From positions 2,480,001 to 2,544,000 of the forward strand of contig NZ_JAUTBD010000001.1 in NCBI RefSeq assembly GCF_030818935.1: a stretch of DNA of 64,000 nt. Direction: 5' to 3'. The stretch comes from Microbacterium sp. SORGH_AS_1204. GTDB taxonomy: Bacteria > Actinomycetota > Actinomycetes > Actinomycetales > Microbacteriaceae. This document shows positions 15,987 through 32,210 of this stretch, piece after piece. The notes below the pieces were generated by a model. It had not been told where the DNA came from, did not search any database, and saw nothing but the letters and a program-made list of their open reading frames with translations. A program made the position numbers and the translations under genes. Numbering within the stretch: the first letter of the stretch is position 1; every line of letters starts with the position of its first letter.

Positions 15987-16062
15987 TGGTGCCCCCGACA
16001 GGAATCGAACCTGCGACCTTTGGTACCGGAAACCAACGCTCTATCCCCTGAGCTACGGAGGC
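15987..16062 (-). tRNA. tRNA-Arg (anticodon CCG)
   Basis: Full cloverleaf of 76 nt: acceptor GCCTCCG / CGGGGGC, D-arm GCTC...GAGC, anticodon stem TTGGT / ACCAA with loop TTCCGGT (anticodon CCG, reads CGG), T-arm with TTCGATT. Discriminator A and an encoded CCA end. CGG is a common arginine codon at this GC content. Confidence 0.95.
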
Positions 16063-26780: not shown

Positions 26781-27104
26781 TCAGTGGGCGTCTCCGACGA
26801 GTTTCAGCCCGATGACGCAACCGACGAGGCCGAGCACCAGCAGGACCTTCACCAGGGAGATCGCCTCCGTGCCGGTGATCATCGCCACCACCACCGTGAG
26901 CGCCGCCCCGATTCCTACCCAGACGGCGTAGGCGGTACCGGTCGGGATCTCGCGCATCGCGAAGGCGAGCCCGCCCATGGATGCCACCAGGGCCACCCCG
27001 AAGATCACACTGGGCCAGAGCTTGGAGAAGCCCTCCGACCGCCCGAGGGCCGTGGCCCACACGGCCTCGAGGACGCCGGAGAGGATGAGGACGATCCACG
27101 ACAT
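26781..27104 (-). CDS. SMR-family guanidinium exporter (Gdx/SugE type)
   Basis: 107 aa with four membrane helices: MSWIVLILSGVLEAVWATAL... The central Glu in GVLEAVWA is the proton/substrate site (Glu13), and GTAYAVWVGIGA is the helix-3 signature; the W-rich GVLEAVWA context favours the Gdx/SugE branch over EmrE-like drug pumps. Gdx exports guanidinium in exchange for protons. Start set by AAGGAG 7 nt upstream; a long upstream extension is rejected. The leader is a guanidine-III riboswitch, which strongly supports the substrate. Confidence 0.92.
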   Translation of the reverse strand: MSWIVLILSGVLEAVWATALGRSEGFSKLWPSVIFGVALVASMGGLAFAMREIPTGTAYAVWVGIGAALTVVVAMITGTEAISLVKVLLVLGLVGCVIGLKLVGDAH

Positions 27105-27117
27105 GACGATGCTCCTT

Positions 27118-27158
27118 GGCCAGTCTTGTCGCAGTCCGGGTACTGATCCCTCGTCCGG
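27118..27158 (-). promoter_or_regulatory. guanidine-III (ykkC-III) riboswitch
   Basis: 41 nt read on the minus strand. Conserved pieces occur in order: CCGGACGAGG (27158-27149), GTACCCGG (27143-27136), GACAAGAC (27130-27123). CCGG pairs with CCGG (P1), and GATCAG with CTGGCC gives the pseudoknot with one mismatch and a wobble. The element ends directly against the Shine-Dalgarno AAGGAG (27117-27112) of the gdx gene, the layout for control of [11 protein letters not shown]. Known members occur in actinobacteria upstream of such exporters. Called by comparison with the remembered consensus, not by covariance search. Confidence 0.9.
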
Positions 27159-27225
27159 GGACGCGGCGGGCGTCCGGTGTCCACGATAGCGACCCCGCCT
27201 GGGCGCCGCCCGTGCAGTCCGCTCC

Positions 27226-27440: not shown

Positions 27441-28301
27441 TCAGATGAGGAAGATGGATGCCGCACCGGGGTTGTGCGCGTGCACGAGCACGCCGAACAC
27501 CACGGCGTCGAACAGCAGGTGCACCGTGACGACGTACCAGAGCGAGCGCGTCTTCAAGAAGAGGAAGCCCTGCACGATCGCGAACGGGATGGTGAGCAAC
27601 GGGCCCCACGACTGGTAGCCGAGCTCCCACAGGAACGACACGAACACGACAGCCTGCAGCAGGTTCGCCGTGAGGTCGGGGAAGTGTCGGCGCAGCAGCA
27701 CGAACACGGTGCAGATGAAGAAGAGTTCGTCCCAGATGCCGACCGCGCCGACGCCGACGAACAGGCGGGCGATCAGCTCGGGGGTGGTCACTTCGGGCCA
27801 GTTCCGGTAAACGCCGGAGGTGATGAAGTAGAACGGCAGGATGAGATAGCCGAGCACGATGACCCCGCCGAGCCACGCCCACTGCCACCAGGTCCAGCGG
27901 CCCCCGCCGCGCCACGGGAAGCGGATCGCATAGTCGCGGTAGACGAAGCGCGAGATGACGTAGGGCACGACGACCGCGCCGCCGAGAGCGAGGGTGAAGC
28001 GCACGAAGGCCGCATTGTCGAGCTCGGCGTGCAGCGGGATGAGGCTGACGATGAACTGGCCGATCGCGACCAGCGACACGTCGCGGGCGATGCTCGGCTC
28101 CTCGCCGCGGGCGAGGGCGACGCCCGCGCGGCGATCGACGAGAATCCCGGATGCCACGGCGAGCGCGAGCAGGATCCAGCCCAGCCACACGATCTGCACG
28201 ACGAACAGCGCCGGGGCGGCGAGGCACACCAGCAGCGCCGGGACGAGTTTGGGCGTCCACGTGGAACGTTCGCGGACCGGCACCGCGGTGTGCGCGGTCA
28301 C
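27441..28301 (-). CDS. CPBP (CaaX/Rce1-like) membrane protein, degenerate active site
   Basis: 286 aa, about seven membrane helices. The C-terminal half follows the CPBP layout: GIWDELFFICTVFVLLRRHFP where active members have EExxxR, then WELGYQSWGPLLTIPFAIVQGFLFLKTRSLW and TVHLLFDAVVF. Motif 1 is altered (DELFFICT), so protease activity is doubtful. The GTG start overlaps the trmB stop (GTGA), so it is [12 protein letters not shown] with trmB. Function unknown. Confidence 0.7.
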   Translation of the reverse strand: MTAHTAVPVRERSTWTPKLVPALLVCLAAPALFVVQIVWLGWILLALAVASGILVDRRAGVALARGEEPSIARDVSLVAIGQFIVSLIPLHAELDNAAFVRFTLALGGAVVVPYVISRFVYRDYAIRFPWRGGGRWTWWQWAWLGGVIVLGYLILPFYFITSGVYRNWPEVTTPELIARLFVGVGAVGIWDELFFICTVFVLLRRHFPDLTANLLQAVVFVSFLWELGYQSWGPLLTIPFAIVQGFLFLKTRSLWYVVTVHLLFDAVVFGVLVHAHNPGAASIFLI

Positions 28302-29020
28302 GGCGAGACCCGGGTGTAGGTCAGGTCGCGGATGTCGCGTCCGACCCGCAGGCCCTTGCGCTCGAAGGCCGTGAGCACACGGCCGTCGAAACGCTCGGCC
28401 CACTCCCCCTCGAACGCCCGCTCGAAGCCCGGGGCCTCGTCGAGCACGTCGCGCATCTGGTCGGCGTAGTCCTGCCAGTCGGTCGCCAGACGCAGTGTGC
28501 CGCCGGGGCGCAGCGCCTGTGCGGTGATGCGGGCGAAGTCGGGGGCCACCAGCCGGCGCTTGGTGTGCTTGTTCTTGTGCCAGGGGTCGGGGAAGAACAC
28601 CCAGAGCTCGTCGATGGATGCCGCCGGCAGCAGGTGCTCGAGCGCCTCCGGCGCGTTGGCCTCCACCAGGCGCAGGTTCTTCACGCCCTCGCGATCGGCG
28701 TCGAGCATCGTGCGCGCGAGGCCCGCCGTGAACACCTCGACGGCGAGGAAGTCTTTCTCGGGGTGAGCTGCGGCCGCCGAGACGATCTGATGGCCCTGCC
28801 CCGAGCCGATCTCGACGACCAGCGGGGCGTTGCGTCCGTACACAGCGGCGGGATCGATCGCCGTCCCGGGCTTCACGCTCGTGGCGGCCGCGGCGCGCTC
28901 GACGGGCAGCAGATAAAACGGCGAGAGCTCGGCCCACGCACGATCCTGCGCCTCCGACATGCGGCCGCTGCGGCGCACGAACGACACCGGCTTGTCGCGG
29001 TAAACGGGCGCGGCATCCAT
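28298..29020 (-). CDS. trmB: tRNA (guanine-N7-)-methyltransferase
   Basis: 240 aa. SAM-dependent methylation of G46 in tRNAs. Motifs: SAM site LVVEIGSGQGHQIV, acidic AVEVFTAGLARTM, and the family signature VFFPDPWHKNKHTKRRLV. The ATG is chosen because a -10 hexamer TAGCCT sits exactly 7 nt upstream (leaderless); no ribosome site is present. Cotranscribed with the CPBP-like gene. Confidence 0.95.
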   Translation of the reverse strand: MDAAPVYRDKPVSFVRRSGRMSEAQDRAWAELSPFYLLPVERAAAATSVKPGTAIDPAAVYGRNAPLVVEIGSGQGHQIVSAAAAHPEKDFLAVEVFTAGLARTMLDADREGVKNLRLVEANAPEALEHLLPAASIDELWVFFPDPWHKNKHTKRRLVAPDFARITAQALRPGGTLRLATDWQDYADQMRDVLDEAPGFERAFEGEWAERFDGRVLTAFERKGLRVGRDIRDLTYTRVSP

Positions 29021-29027
29021 GGCATCC

Positions 29028-29033
29028 AGGCTA
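29028..29033 (-). promoter_or_regulatory. -10 hexamer TAGCCT of trmB, then GGATGCC-ATG
   Basis: TAGCCT, GGATGCC, ATG with no extra base. Predicts a transcript starting at the ATG. Confidence 0.55.
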
Positions 29034-29038
29034 TCCGC

Positions 29039-29103
29039 CGCGTGAGGGGTCAACTTTTGTCGCCCAGACGACGCCGAAGCGACAGAATCTGACCCCTCAC
29101 GCG
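29039..29103 (-). terminator. long inverted repeat after the DUF3097 gene
   Basis: Perfect 14-bp arms CGCGTGAGGGGTCA (29039-29052) and TGACCCCTCACGCG (29090-29103), with a second inner stem TGTCGC / GCGACA. Lies between the DUF3097 stop and the trmB promoter, both minus strand. Confidence 0.65.
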
Positions 29104-29124
29104 AGAGGGCTCGCTTGCGGCCGC

Positions 29125-29958
29125 TCACGGGACGGTCACGAAGTCGATGAGTTCCTCGACGCGGCCGAGCAGGGCCGGCTCGAGGTCGCGGAACGTGGTG
29201 ACCTTCGACAGGATGTGCTGCCACGCGCGGGCGGTGTCGGCCTGCTCCTCAGCGGGCCAGCCGAGGGCACGGCAGACGCCGACCTTCCACTCGATACCGC
29301 GGGGGACCTCGGGCCATGCGGCGATGCCGAGGGCGCGCGGGGTGACGCACTGCCACACGTCGACGAAGGGATGCCCCACGATCCGCACGTGGGCGCCGTG
29401 GCGGCCGCGGGCGATTTTTTCCGCGATGCGCGACTCCTTCGAGTTCGGCACGAGGTGGTCCACGAGCACGCCGTAGCGTCGCTCGGCGGTGGGGGGCTCG
29501 GCATCCAGGGTCTGTTCGAGCAGGTCGACGCCCTCGAGGAACTCGACGACCACGCCCTCGGCCCGGAGGTCTGCGCCCCACACCTTCTCGACGAGCTCGG
29601 CGTCGTGCTTGCCCTCGACGAAGATGCGGCTGGCGCGGGCCGTGCGCGCGCGCTGGTCGGCGACGGCGAACGACCCGGATGCCGTGCGCGTGCGCCCCTT
29701 CGGAGCCGCTGCCGGGGCGGTCAGCACCACCGGCTTGCCGTCGACGAGGAACCCGCCGCCGAGGGGGAACAGCCGGCGTTTGCCGAAACGGTCCTCGAGC
29801 TCGACGTTCATGCCGTCGACGCGGGTCACCGCGCCGACGTAGCCGTCGCCGGCGACTTCGACGACCAGATCGGCGGATGCCGCGACCTGGGCGGGCTTCA
29901 CACGTCCGGCGTCGCGCCAGCCTCGGGCGAGCACATCGGTGCCGTAGCGGTCGTCCAT
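29125..29958 (-). CDS. DUF3097 family protein
   Basis: 277 aa, MDDRYGTDVLARGWR... The family is conserved in actinobacteria. The segment ASRIFVEGKHDAELVEKVWG resembles a TOPRIM-type strand (EGKxDA), with later acidic GVLVDHLV, which hints at nucleic acid or nucleotide chemistry, but no function is known. GGAGG lies before the ATG and TAGGCT further upstream is a candidate -10. Confidence 0.8.
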   Translation of the reverse strand: MDDRYGTDVLARGWRDAGRVKPAQVAASADLVVEVAGDGYVGAVTRVDGMNVELEDRFGKRRLFPLGGGFLVDGKPVVLTAPAAAPKGRTRTASGSFAVADQRARTARASRIFVEGKHDAELVEKVWGADLRAEGVVVEFLEGVDLLEQTLDAEPPTAERRYGVLVDHLVPNSKESRIAEKIARGRHGAHVRIVGHPFVDVWQCVTPRALGIAAWPEVPRGIEWKVGVCRALGWPAEEQADTARAWQHILSKVTTFRDLEPALLGRVEELIDFVTVP

Positions 29959-30080
29959 CTGTACCTCCGAACGCCCGAGCCTAGGCCGCCGAGCCGTGCG
30001 CTGACAGCGGACGCGCCGGACCTACCCGGGTGTCGGAGGTCGTTTATAGGGTGGGAAGTCCAGCGACCGAAGGGGAACGC

Positions 30081-32210
30081 ATGCGAAAGCCCAGGGCGGC
30101 ACGAGTGATCGCCGCGCTGCTGCTCGGGGCCGTCGGGGTGCTGGCGGCACCGTTGACCGCCGTCGCCGTTCCGCCTCCCAGCCTGGGTTCGAGCTATGTG
30201 CTCGACAGCGTGGACGCCCTCACCGACGCCGAGGAAGCCGCCGTACAGAGTCGACTCGTCGCGCTCCGCGAGCAGACCGGGCTCGACATGTGGGCCGTGT
30301 ACGTCCCGGAGTTCACCGATCCCCCCGCCGCCGCGGACTGGGCCAACGAGACCGCGAACAAGAACGAGCTCGGGCCCGACCAGTACGTCCTGGCGGTGGC
30401 GATCAGCGGCGACACGTTCGCCTACTACCTGTCCGGAGACGTCGACGACGGCGTGCTCTCCGCCGCGCAACTCGGCGACATCGAGCAGACGCGGATCGAG
30501 CCCGCCCTCGAGGCCGGCGACGACGCCGGAGCCGCGATCGCGGCCGCCGACGGCATCCGAGCCGCCTACGGCCAGGCCGGCGGCGGCGAGCCCGCTCCTC
30601 CTCCCACCCCCGCCACCCCGAGCGGGCCGGCCGTCGGTCCTGCCCTCATCGTCGGCATGCTGCTCCTCGGCATCGCCGTTGCGCTCGTCTGGTTCTGGCT
30701 GCGGCGGCGACGGCAGGCGACCGGGGATGCGCCGGGTGCGCCGGCCGAGGCCATTGAGAATCTCGCACGGCGCGCGGGATCGGCGCTGGTGTCGACCGAT
30801 GACGCCATCAAGACCAGCGAGCAAGAACTGGGCTTCGCCCGAGCCCAATTCGGCGACGATGCCGCCGCGCCCTTCACCGACGTGCTCGCGCAGGCGAAAG
30901 CCGACCTCGACCGGGCATTCACGATCCAGCAGCAGCTCGACGACGACGTGCCCGAGACGCCGGAACAGCAGCGAGCGGGCTACGCCGAGATCCTCCGCTT
31001 GTGCACGAGTGCCGACGAGGCGCTCGATGCCAAAGCCGCCGCCTTCGACGAACTCCGCGCCCTCGAAGCCGACGCCCCGCGGGTCCTCGTCGCGGCTCGA
31101 GAGCAGCATGCCGCCGCCGAGGCGGCGCTCCCGGCAGCCGAGAACGATTTGACCCGGTTGCGCGAACGCTTCACCGACGATGCCCTCGCGCCCGTGGCGG
31201 ACAACACGTCGCAGGCACGCGCCCGTCTCGAGGTCTCGACCGCTCAAGCGGCCGCGGCCGATGCCGCTCTCGCGTCAGGCCGCGCCGGCGAGGCCGCCGT
31301 CGCGATCCGTGCAGCTCAGGCCGCCGTCGCCCAGGCCGAGACGCTCGAGCGTGCCATCGCGACTCTGGGCGACGACCTCGCCGACGCCGAGAAGCGCGCC
31401 GCCGCGCTGGTCGCCGAGATCGAGGGCGACCTGGTCGCCGCGTCGCGGCTCGCCGACCCCGACGGGCGCGTCGCGGCAGCGGCGGCGTCGGCGCGCACCC
31501 AGCTCGACGCTGCGCGGGGAGCGCTCGGCCCGGGTCGCACCAGCCCGCTCCGCGCGGTCGAGACGCTGCAACAGGCCAACGCGACGATCGACGCGGTGCT
31601 CGGCGAAGCGCGTGACGCCGCCGAACGGCGGCAGCGGGCCGAGAGTCGACTCGACGCCGTTCTCGCGCAGGCACGCGCACAGGTCTCGGCGACAGAAGAC
31701 TTCATCTCGGCGCGACGCGGAGCGGTCGGGCCGACCGCGCGCACGCGTCTCGCCGAGGCGGGCGCGGCGCTCGTGCAAGCCCAGCAGCTGCGCGCAACCG
31801 ACCCGGTCACCGCTCTCGCCACGGCGCAGCGCGCCGCGCAGCTGGCGAGCGACGCCGCCTCCCTGGCGCAGAGCGACGTCGGCGCGTTCGGCGGCATGGG
31901 CGGACTCGGTGGCCTGACCGGCGGCGGCGGAAGCGGCGGCGGCATGATGGGCGCCATCCTCGGGGGCATCGCGGTCGACGCTCTGCTCGGCGGCGGGGGG
32001 CGACGACGGGGCGGTTTCGGCGGCGGCGGACTCGGGAGCCTCGGAGGGCTCGGCGGTCTCGGCGGCGGACTCGGCGGCGGCCGTTCTCGCAGCGGCGGCG
32101 GACTCGGCGGAGGCTTCAGCGGCGGCGGGCGCAGCCGCTCGGGTGGCGGCGGGGGCTTCTCCGGGGGCGGCCGCAGCCGTGCCGGGGGCGGCGGAGGCAG
32201 ACGCCGCTAG
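30081..32210 (+). CDS. TPM-domain membrane protein with coiled coil and Gly-rich tail
   Basis: 709 aa. Signal peptide (1-30), TPM domain facing outside (about 40-165: SYVLDSVDALTDAEEAAVQSRL ... AYYLSGDVDDGVLSAAQ), membrane helix (LIVGMLLLGIAVALVWFWL) and a long Ala/Glu/Gln-rich coiled-coil region (about 240-600). The Gly/Ser/Arg-rich tail has GGGRSRSGGG repeats. The family is linked to envelope and photosystem maintenance in other organisms. AAGGGGAA precedes this ATG; TATAGGGT at about 30042 is a likely -10. It precedes pspA, so envelope stress is a reasonable setting. Confidence 0.85.
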   Translation: MRKPRAARVIAALLLGAVGVLAAPLTAVAVPPPSLGSSYVLDSVDALTDAEEAAVQSRLVALREQTGLDMWAVYVPEFTDPPAAADWANETANKNELGPDQYVLAVAISGDTFAYYLSGDVDDGVLSAAQLGDIEQTRIEPALEAGDDAGAAIAAADGIRAAYGQAGGGEPAPPPTPATPSGPAVGPALIVGMLLLGIAVALVWFWLRRRRQATGDAPGAPAEAIENLARRAGSALVSTDDAIKTSEQELGFARAQFGDDAAAPFTDVLAQAKADLDRAFTIQQQLDDDVPETPEQQRAGYAEILRLCTSADEALDAKAAAFDELRALEADAPRVLVAAREQHAAAEAALPAAENDLTRLRERFTDDALAPVADNTSQARARLEVSTAQAAAADAALASGRAGEAAVAIRAAQAAVAQAETLERAIATLGDDLADAEKRAAALVAEIEGDLVAASRLADPDGRVAAAAASARTQLDAARGALGPGRTSPLRAVETLQQANATIDAVLGEARDAAERRQRAESRLDAVLAQARAQVSATEDFISARRGAVGPTARTRLAEAGAALVQAQQLRATDPVTALATAQRAAQLASDAASLAQSDVGAFGGMGGLGGLTGGGGSGGGMMGAILGGIAVDALLGGGGRRRGGFGGGGLGSLGGLGGLGGGLGGGRSRSGGGLGGGFSGGGRSRSGGGGGFSGGGRSRAGGGGGRRR

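Follow-up and report, generated by a model that had tools for sequence, protein, structure and literature searches.

A guanidine-III riboswitch before a Gdx-type SMR exporter gene in Microbacterium, with a candidate OFF helix at the start codon

What is already known of RNAs such as the one described here? According to the literature, guanidine-III riboswitches are mainly actinobacterial and precede SMR genes. They are described as ON switches: once the ligand is bound, the pseudoknot is complete, alternative structures are displaced and the Shine-Dalgarno sequence becomes available (PMC12186494, PMC5696562). The class has also been reported to shield its mRNA against RNase E (PMC12186494). 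P1 and P2 are formed even without ligand, a state in which the third strand is loose, and in the T. fusca structure C6, G7 and G17 touch guanidinium (PMC5696562). Guanidine-I, -II and -IV riboswitches sense the same ligand and accompany similar genes, but their folds differ. The class, its ligand, its structure, its actinobacterial distribution, its link to SMR genes and its ON control are published; in the literature consulted, its OFF state is outlined only broadly.

How does the present locus compare? Our window, the whole stretch of 64,000 nucleotides from Microbacterium sp. SORGH_AS_1204, holds a guanidine-III riboswitch that belongs clearly to this known class and is otherwise ordinary (Table 1). 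The initial annotation, made from the letters of the sequence, had already named the class and proposed a covariance-model search as the check; run over the whole window with cmscan, this search yields an RF01763 match whose score of 54.4 bits exceeds the gathering score (36), with an alignment spanning the full model (1-67 of 67) and an E-value of 1.7e-8, which is far beyond chance. Searched across the whole genome, the match has an E-value of 2.3e-10 and is the sole one for RF01763 at E <= 0.001 in 3.7 Mb (genome 94.9% complete). No other guanidine family reaches its cut-off within the window, and Guanidine-I has no match anywhere in the window's genome. The window's only other Rfam match at gathering score is a tRNA gene (15990-16062, minus strand).

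The 41-nt core, CCGGACGAGGGATCAGTACCCGGACTGCGACAAGACTGGCC, is numbered according to the scheme of the T. fusca structure (PMC5696562). Its conserved blocks lie exactly where the initial annotation, which named no strand, had seen them; its two CCGG segments can form P1 as had been described (27158-27155, C1-G4, with 27139-27136), and it stops at 27118, one base before the AAGGAG that begins at 27117, again as had been described. The span given there, 27104-27158, was right for the core but did not take in the 5' hairpin that Rfam's model includes. P2 joins 27148-27142 to 27124-27118 and keeps six of seven pairs in the cmscan alignment, the exception being an A-C mismatch (27147 x 27119) flagged by the program. 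The nucleotides in contact with the ligand are all present and unchanged, with C6 at 27153, G7 at 27152 and the equivalent of G17 at 27143. The window strand between C1 and G17 is one nucleotide shorter than its T. fusca counterpart. The 41 letters of the T. fusca aptamer agree with the pairs named in PMC5696562. Overall, the locus resembles the T. fusca riboswitch (5NWQ) in P1, P2, the contact nucleotides, the downstream Shine-Dalgarno sequence and the exporter gene; it differs in the P2 mismatch and in the distance from the aptamer's 3' end to the Shine-Dalgarno sequence, which is 0 nt here and 16 nt in T. fusca (PMC5696562).

Table 1. Features at and around the riboswitch, in window coordinates
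Feature	Position	Strand	Evidence or remark
SMR exporter gene, Gdx type, 107 aa (P0001)	26781-27104	-	PF00893 76.1 bits
Predicted OFF hairpin	27096-27134	-	27134-27123 with 27107-27096; AAGGAG in loop
Start codon ATG of SMR gene	27104-27102	-	sequence
GUC directly before start codon	27105-27107	-	candidate OFF partner of G34-A35-C36 (27125-27123)
Shine-Dalgarno AAGGAG	27117-27112	-	sequence; abuts aptamer 3' end
Guanidine-III riboswitch with 5' hairpin (Rfam model)	27115-27179	-	RF01763 54.4 bits
41-nt aptamer core C1-C41	27118-27158	-	sequence, numbered per PMC5696562
5' hairpin of Rfam model	27179-27159	-	
-10-like TATCGT	27183-27188	-	counterparts in relatives
Rce1-like (CPBP) membrane protease	27441-28256	-	neighbour
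TrmB tRNA methyltransferase	28298-29224	-	neighbour
DUF3097 protein	29125-29958	-	neighbour
TPM-domain protein	30030-32210	+	neighbour

The gene behind the aptamer had been annotated as an SMR exporter, which its PF00893 score bears out (cut-off 23.7 bits), and it is the genome's only match to this family. The best solved relative of its product, P0001, is 6wk5 (Gdx-Clo, the exemplar of the Gdx guanidinium exporters); the likeness extends over the whole length (residues 1-102, E 1.3e-17), and the residues E13, W16, S42, Y59 and W62 are all present. According to PMC7695847, S42, Y59 and W62 are a conserved feature of SMR proteins as a whole, and position 16 is a conserved Trp in Gdx proteins but Gly or Ala in Qac drug exporters. 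Of the 21 models with a match to P0001, the NCBIfam SugE equivalog NF008512 ranks first. Setting P0001 apart from the Gdx exporters is its score against this model, 88.3 bits and thus below the cut-off of 126. We consider it a Gdx-type SMR protein with guanidinium as its likely substrate. As W16 and the 6wk5 relationship already point to guanidinium, the view that one could not be sure of the substrate from the protein alone goes too far, and so does the claim that the riboswitch by itself identifies it: the riboswitch agrees with the protein and corroborates guanidinium export, without proving the substrate. For an exporter whose family name stands for multidrug resistance, both a regulator and a likely substrate can thereby be annotated with confidence. 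The CPBP protease, TrmB, DUF3097 and TPM-domain neighbours show no obvious tie to guanidine.

Among relatives, RF01763 was detected in 100 of the 199 family genomes sampled, in 38 of 59 genus genomes and in 175 of 394 genomes at class level. All 138 distinct family and genus places were examined, and in 130 of them an SMR gene lies directly 3' of the element, in 35 cases as the first of a tandem SMR pair; at the other eight, a small membrane protein of CBU_0592 type follows. Close SMR relatives (E < 1e-29) are found in 41 of the 59 genus genomes, 38 of which have the riboswitch. The three without a detectable guanidine-III match carry tandem SMR pairs (L146-L148). Other tandem SMR pairs retain the riboswitch with a GCGG/CCGC P1. 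Among the nearest 80 of 578 SMR genes from named genomes, 79 have a loose aptamer pattern, and the best named relatives are mostly Microbacterium. Of 90 places examined in the class sample, 83 were placed and seven left unplaced; by HMM, 70 of the placed loci precede SMR genes and three CBU_0592-type genes, and the ten that precede neither were excluded from the P1, fold and covariation counts. L123 was excluded from the spacing, accessibility, register, hairpin-energy, fold, covariation and P1 counts. In 136 of 137 placed family loci, the start codon follows C41 at a distance of 11-22 nt.

The relatives also speak for the pseudoknot, whose partners the initial annotation had recognized. Leaving out two misplaced loci of 210 (L205, L232), all four P1 pairs are possible in 208 of 208 placed loci, and they are realized as CCGG/CCGG in 158, GCGG/CCGC in 38, CCCG/CGGG in ten and two single types, so that compensatory changes support the pairing. 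When P1 partners were permuted, the mean was 3.585 of 4 pairs and the observed value was reached in 0 of 1000 permutations, uncorrected for relatedness and with positions 3-4 partly fixed beforehand by anchoring the landmarks on GGACGA or ACGA. The presence of ACGA at positions 5-8 in 209 of 210 loci was not used, because the loci had been located by that motif.

Taken together, we hold with a probability of about 0.93 that the guanidine-III riboswitch switches on a Gdx-type SMR guanidinium exporter, with less certainty for the part played by the ACAAGAC hairpin described below. Our basis for this reading is the sequence, the covariance score, the P1 covariation, the gene link and the position, with the ligand and the ON direction coming from the literature. 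The transcript should begin just before the riboswitch, as indicated by the -10-like TATCGT: in 112 of 137 loci TANNNT lies 28-45 nt 5' of C1, whereas a control position another 160 nt upstream shows it in 2 of the 137. A scan for a strict sigma-70 consensus promoter and a terminator found nothing. Guanidinium binding would close the RNA into an H-type pseudoknot of P1, P2 and the third strand, which would end at the Shine-Dalgarno sequence and leave both the start codon and this sequence free; when guanidine is lacking, a competing pairing would hide the start, so that the exporter would be made only upon guanidine build-up. The earlier statement that folding directly controls ribosome access matches the published class model but goes too far for an ON switch, in which the folded form exposes the site, so that something else must hide it without guanidine. 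This competing structure is predicted, less certainly, to be a hairpin of the ACAAGAC strand with GUC-AUG-UCGUGG.

What argues for such a hairpin? Of its 12 positions in the window, 11 could pair across the start codon, leaving only A27126 (A33) opposite A27104 of the AUG unpaired, and the hairpin is part of the leader's minimum-energy fold as well as of its centroid fold, with the start codon paired and AAGGAG in the loop. It contains a GUC that complements G34-A35-C36 in the conserved ACAAGAC strand. This GUC stands before the start in 93 of 138 riboswitch loci (88 of 130 SMR, 5 of 8 CBU_0592), against only 1 among 109 ordinary starts picked under a strict rule from 464 kb of the window's genome, and in 12 of 23 clusters after protein clustering at 65%. 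L006, whose start was taken at a TTG lying one codon further 3', is counted as non-GTC. Across the 35 tandem loci, GUC precedes 24 first genes and none of the second genes, and it is found in 0 of the 3 riboswitch-less SMR pairs (L146-L148), as checked before the first start. Two other backgrounds were discarded: an initial set of 192 starts (4 GTC) that seemed to contain many wrong starts, and a set from the relatives' flanks (16 of 28 GTC), 19 of whose 28 members were SMR starts themselves (15 GTC), and where the single GTC among the remaining nine had bases identical to the L006 SMR leader.

Pairing and energy calculations over the relatives point in the same direction. When nucleotides 25-36 are placed opposite -3 to +9, a mean of 8.44 of 12 pairs forms across 137 loci, which is the highest value among 13 registers, with the runner-up at 6.61. 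The local hairpins come to -14.68 kcal/mol, versus -10.15 kcal/mol with the start regions of other genes (native lower in 125 of 137) and -11.92 kcal/mol when only the three bases are swapped (native lower in 119 of 137). Local folds contain at least two of the three GAC/GUC pairs in 76 of 129 family SMR loci versus 53 of 1290 shuffles, and in 20 of 70 loci of other families versus 11 of 700; in full-leader folds the numbers go down to 60 of 129 for family SMR loci, with 1 of 8 for CBU_0592 loci. Some relatives, such as L177, L033 and L117, have perfect 8-pair hairpins around the Shine-Dalgarno sequence, and nucleotides 37 and -4 are associated (Fisher p 0.0018, uncorrected for relatedness). 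We tentatively propose that in Microbacteriaceae and related actinobacteria a conserved OFF helix of G34-A35-C36 with GUC, which is absent from the Rfam model, may drive the guanidine-III switch; it is predicted often to run through the start codon or to close a hairpin with the Shine-Dalgarno sequence in its loop. If so, ligand binding and initiation would compete for one strand, G34-A35-C36, a part of the core and of P2 in the bound form. The comparative set of 138 family and genus places and 90 class places thus offers a concrete, testable OFF-state model. Neither this pairing nor the CBU_0592 link was found in the literature searched, a body of texts to which the original guanidine-III paper did not belong, and either may be in print.

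We give the OFF pairing somewhat less than an even chance, because several observations weigh against it. Outside the family, GUC is patchy (32 of 70 SMR loci); covariation of the helix is weak, with ungapped z values of 1.8, 2.0 and 2.2 and 0.9 in the 23 clusters at 65%; its outer part falls in codons that are also constrained by the protein; and L336, the sole SMR gene of the best 80 without a recognized aptamer, has GUC as well. Accessibility from the Shine-Dalgarno sequence to the start is 0.55 in the window with the aptamer free and 0.54 with it locked, and across loci it averages 0.42 free and 0.48 locked (higher when locked in 88 of 137). The stability of the window leader is not unusual compared with shuffles (z -0.27), and P1 and P2 are reported to form in the ligand-free state (PMC5696562). 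The same riboswitch could work from another platform, the GUC complementarity being incidental, to which we likewise give somewhat less than an even chance: shielding from RNase E, as reported for the class (PMC12186494), would be the main effect, or the third strand would provide the OFF state by pairing GGACGA (27156-27151) with UCGUCC (27094-27089) instead of engaging the ACAAGAC strand. The weak covariation of the ACAAGAC/GUC helix fits this rival; in keeping with its second form, the unbound RNA leaves the third strand loose (PMC5696562) and the GGACGA/UCGUCC pairing is present in the window's minimum-energy fold. However, the TCGTC needed to pair with GACGA occurs in only 26 of 138 loci, for which reason we rejected GACGA as the main partner of the UCGUC before the start, attractive as it is for the window. 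Likewise, a purely incidental complementarity does not explain a GUC that is conserved at riboswitch starts and not at second SMR genes, riboswitch-less SMR pairs or ordinary genes.

Doubts about the aptamer itself carry far less weight. Members of the class also accept methyl-, amino- and ethylguanidine as well as agmatine (PMC5696562), and a real aptamer could in principle sense such a substituted guanidine or another ligand; with C6, G7 and the G17 equivalent unchanged in front of a Gdx-type SMR gene, we deem this very improbable. A chance resemblance or a decayed riboswitch, for which the single P2 mismatch and nothing further could be adduced, is of negligible probability in view of the E-value obtained in the window, the genus-wide conservation of the arrangement, the intact SMR gene and the P1 pairs that are possible in all 208 loci.

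Apart from the SMR genes, guanidine-III leaders precede the uncharacterized CBU_0592 family of small membrane proteins, for whose name our literature search found no paper. All eight proteins behind the family leaders L063, L072, L092, L099, L108, L109, L119 and L122 (in each of these loci the aptamer begins at base 201 of the reading strand) score above the NF047864 cut-off, and at the class level three further genes of this type (L206, L222, L237) stand behind guanidine-III elements; the eight family cases suggest that the protein has some connection to guanidine. The window's genome has a CBU_0592 gene outside the window (G000:C1:3453428-3453637, minus strand, locus L149, 94.9 bits), with no guanidine-III match nearby at the Rfam cut-off. 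Four of the eight leaders (L099, L108, L109, L119), and two of the 130 SMR leaders (L118, L123), have a shortened core in which GACAAG-ACG is reduced to GACG-ACG. Three more CBU_0592 leaders of the family, L269, L274 and L278, appear similarly shortened by eye; none of them reaches the Rfam cut-off for guanidine-III, and L278 has a compensatory P1, CUGG/CCAG. The shortened core is possibly a variant with an altered ligand preference. Other partner genes at the class level are six ureohydrolases of the arginase/agmatinase type, assigned by eye (L170, L174, L176, L178, L179, L186; one checked, PF00491), speB being a known guanidine-III partner in the literature, and two metallo-beta-lactamase-fold hydrolases, likewise assigned by eye (L245, L250; one checked, PF00753).
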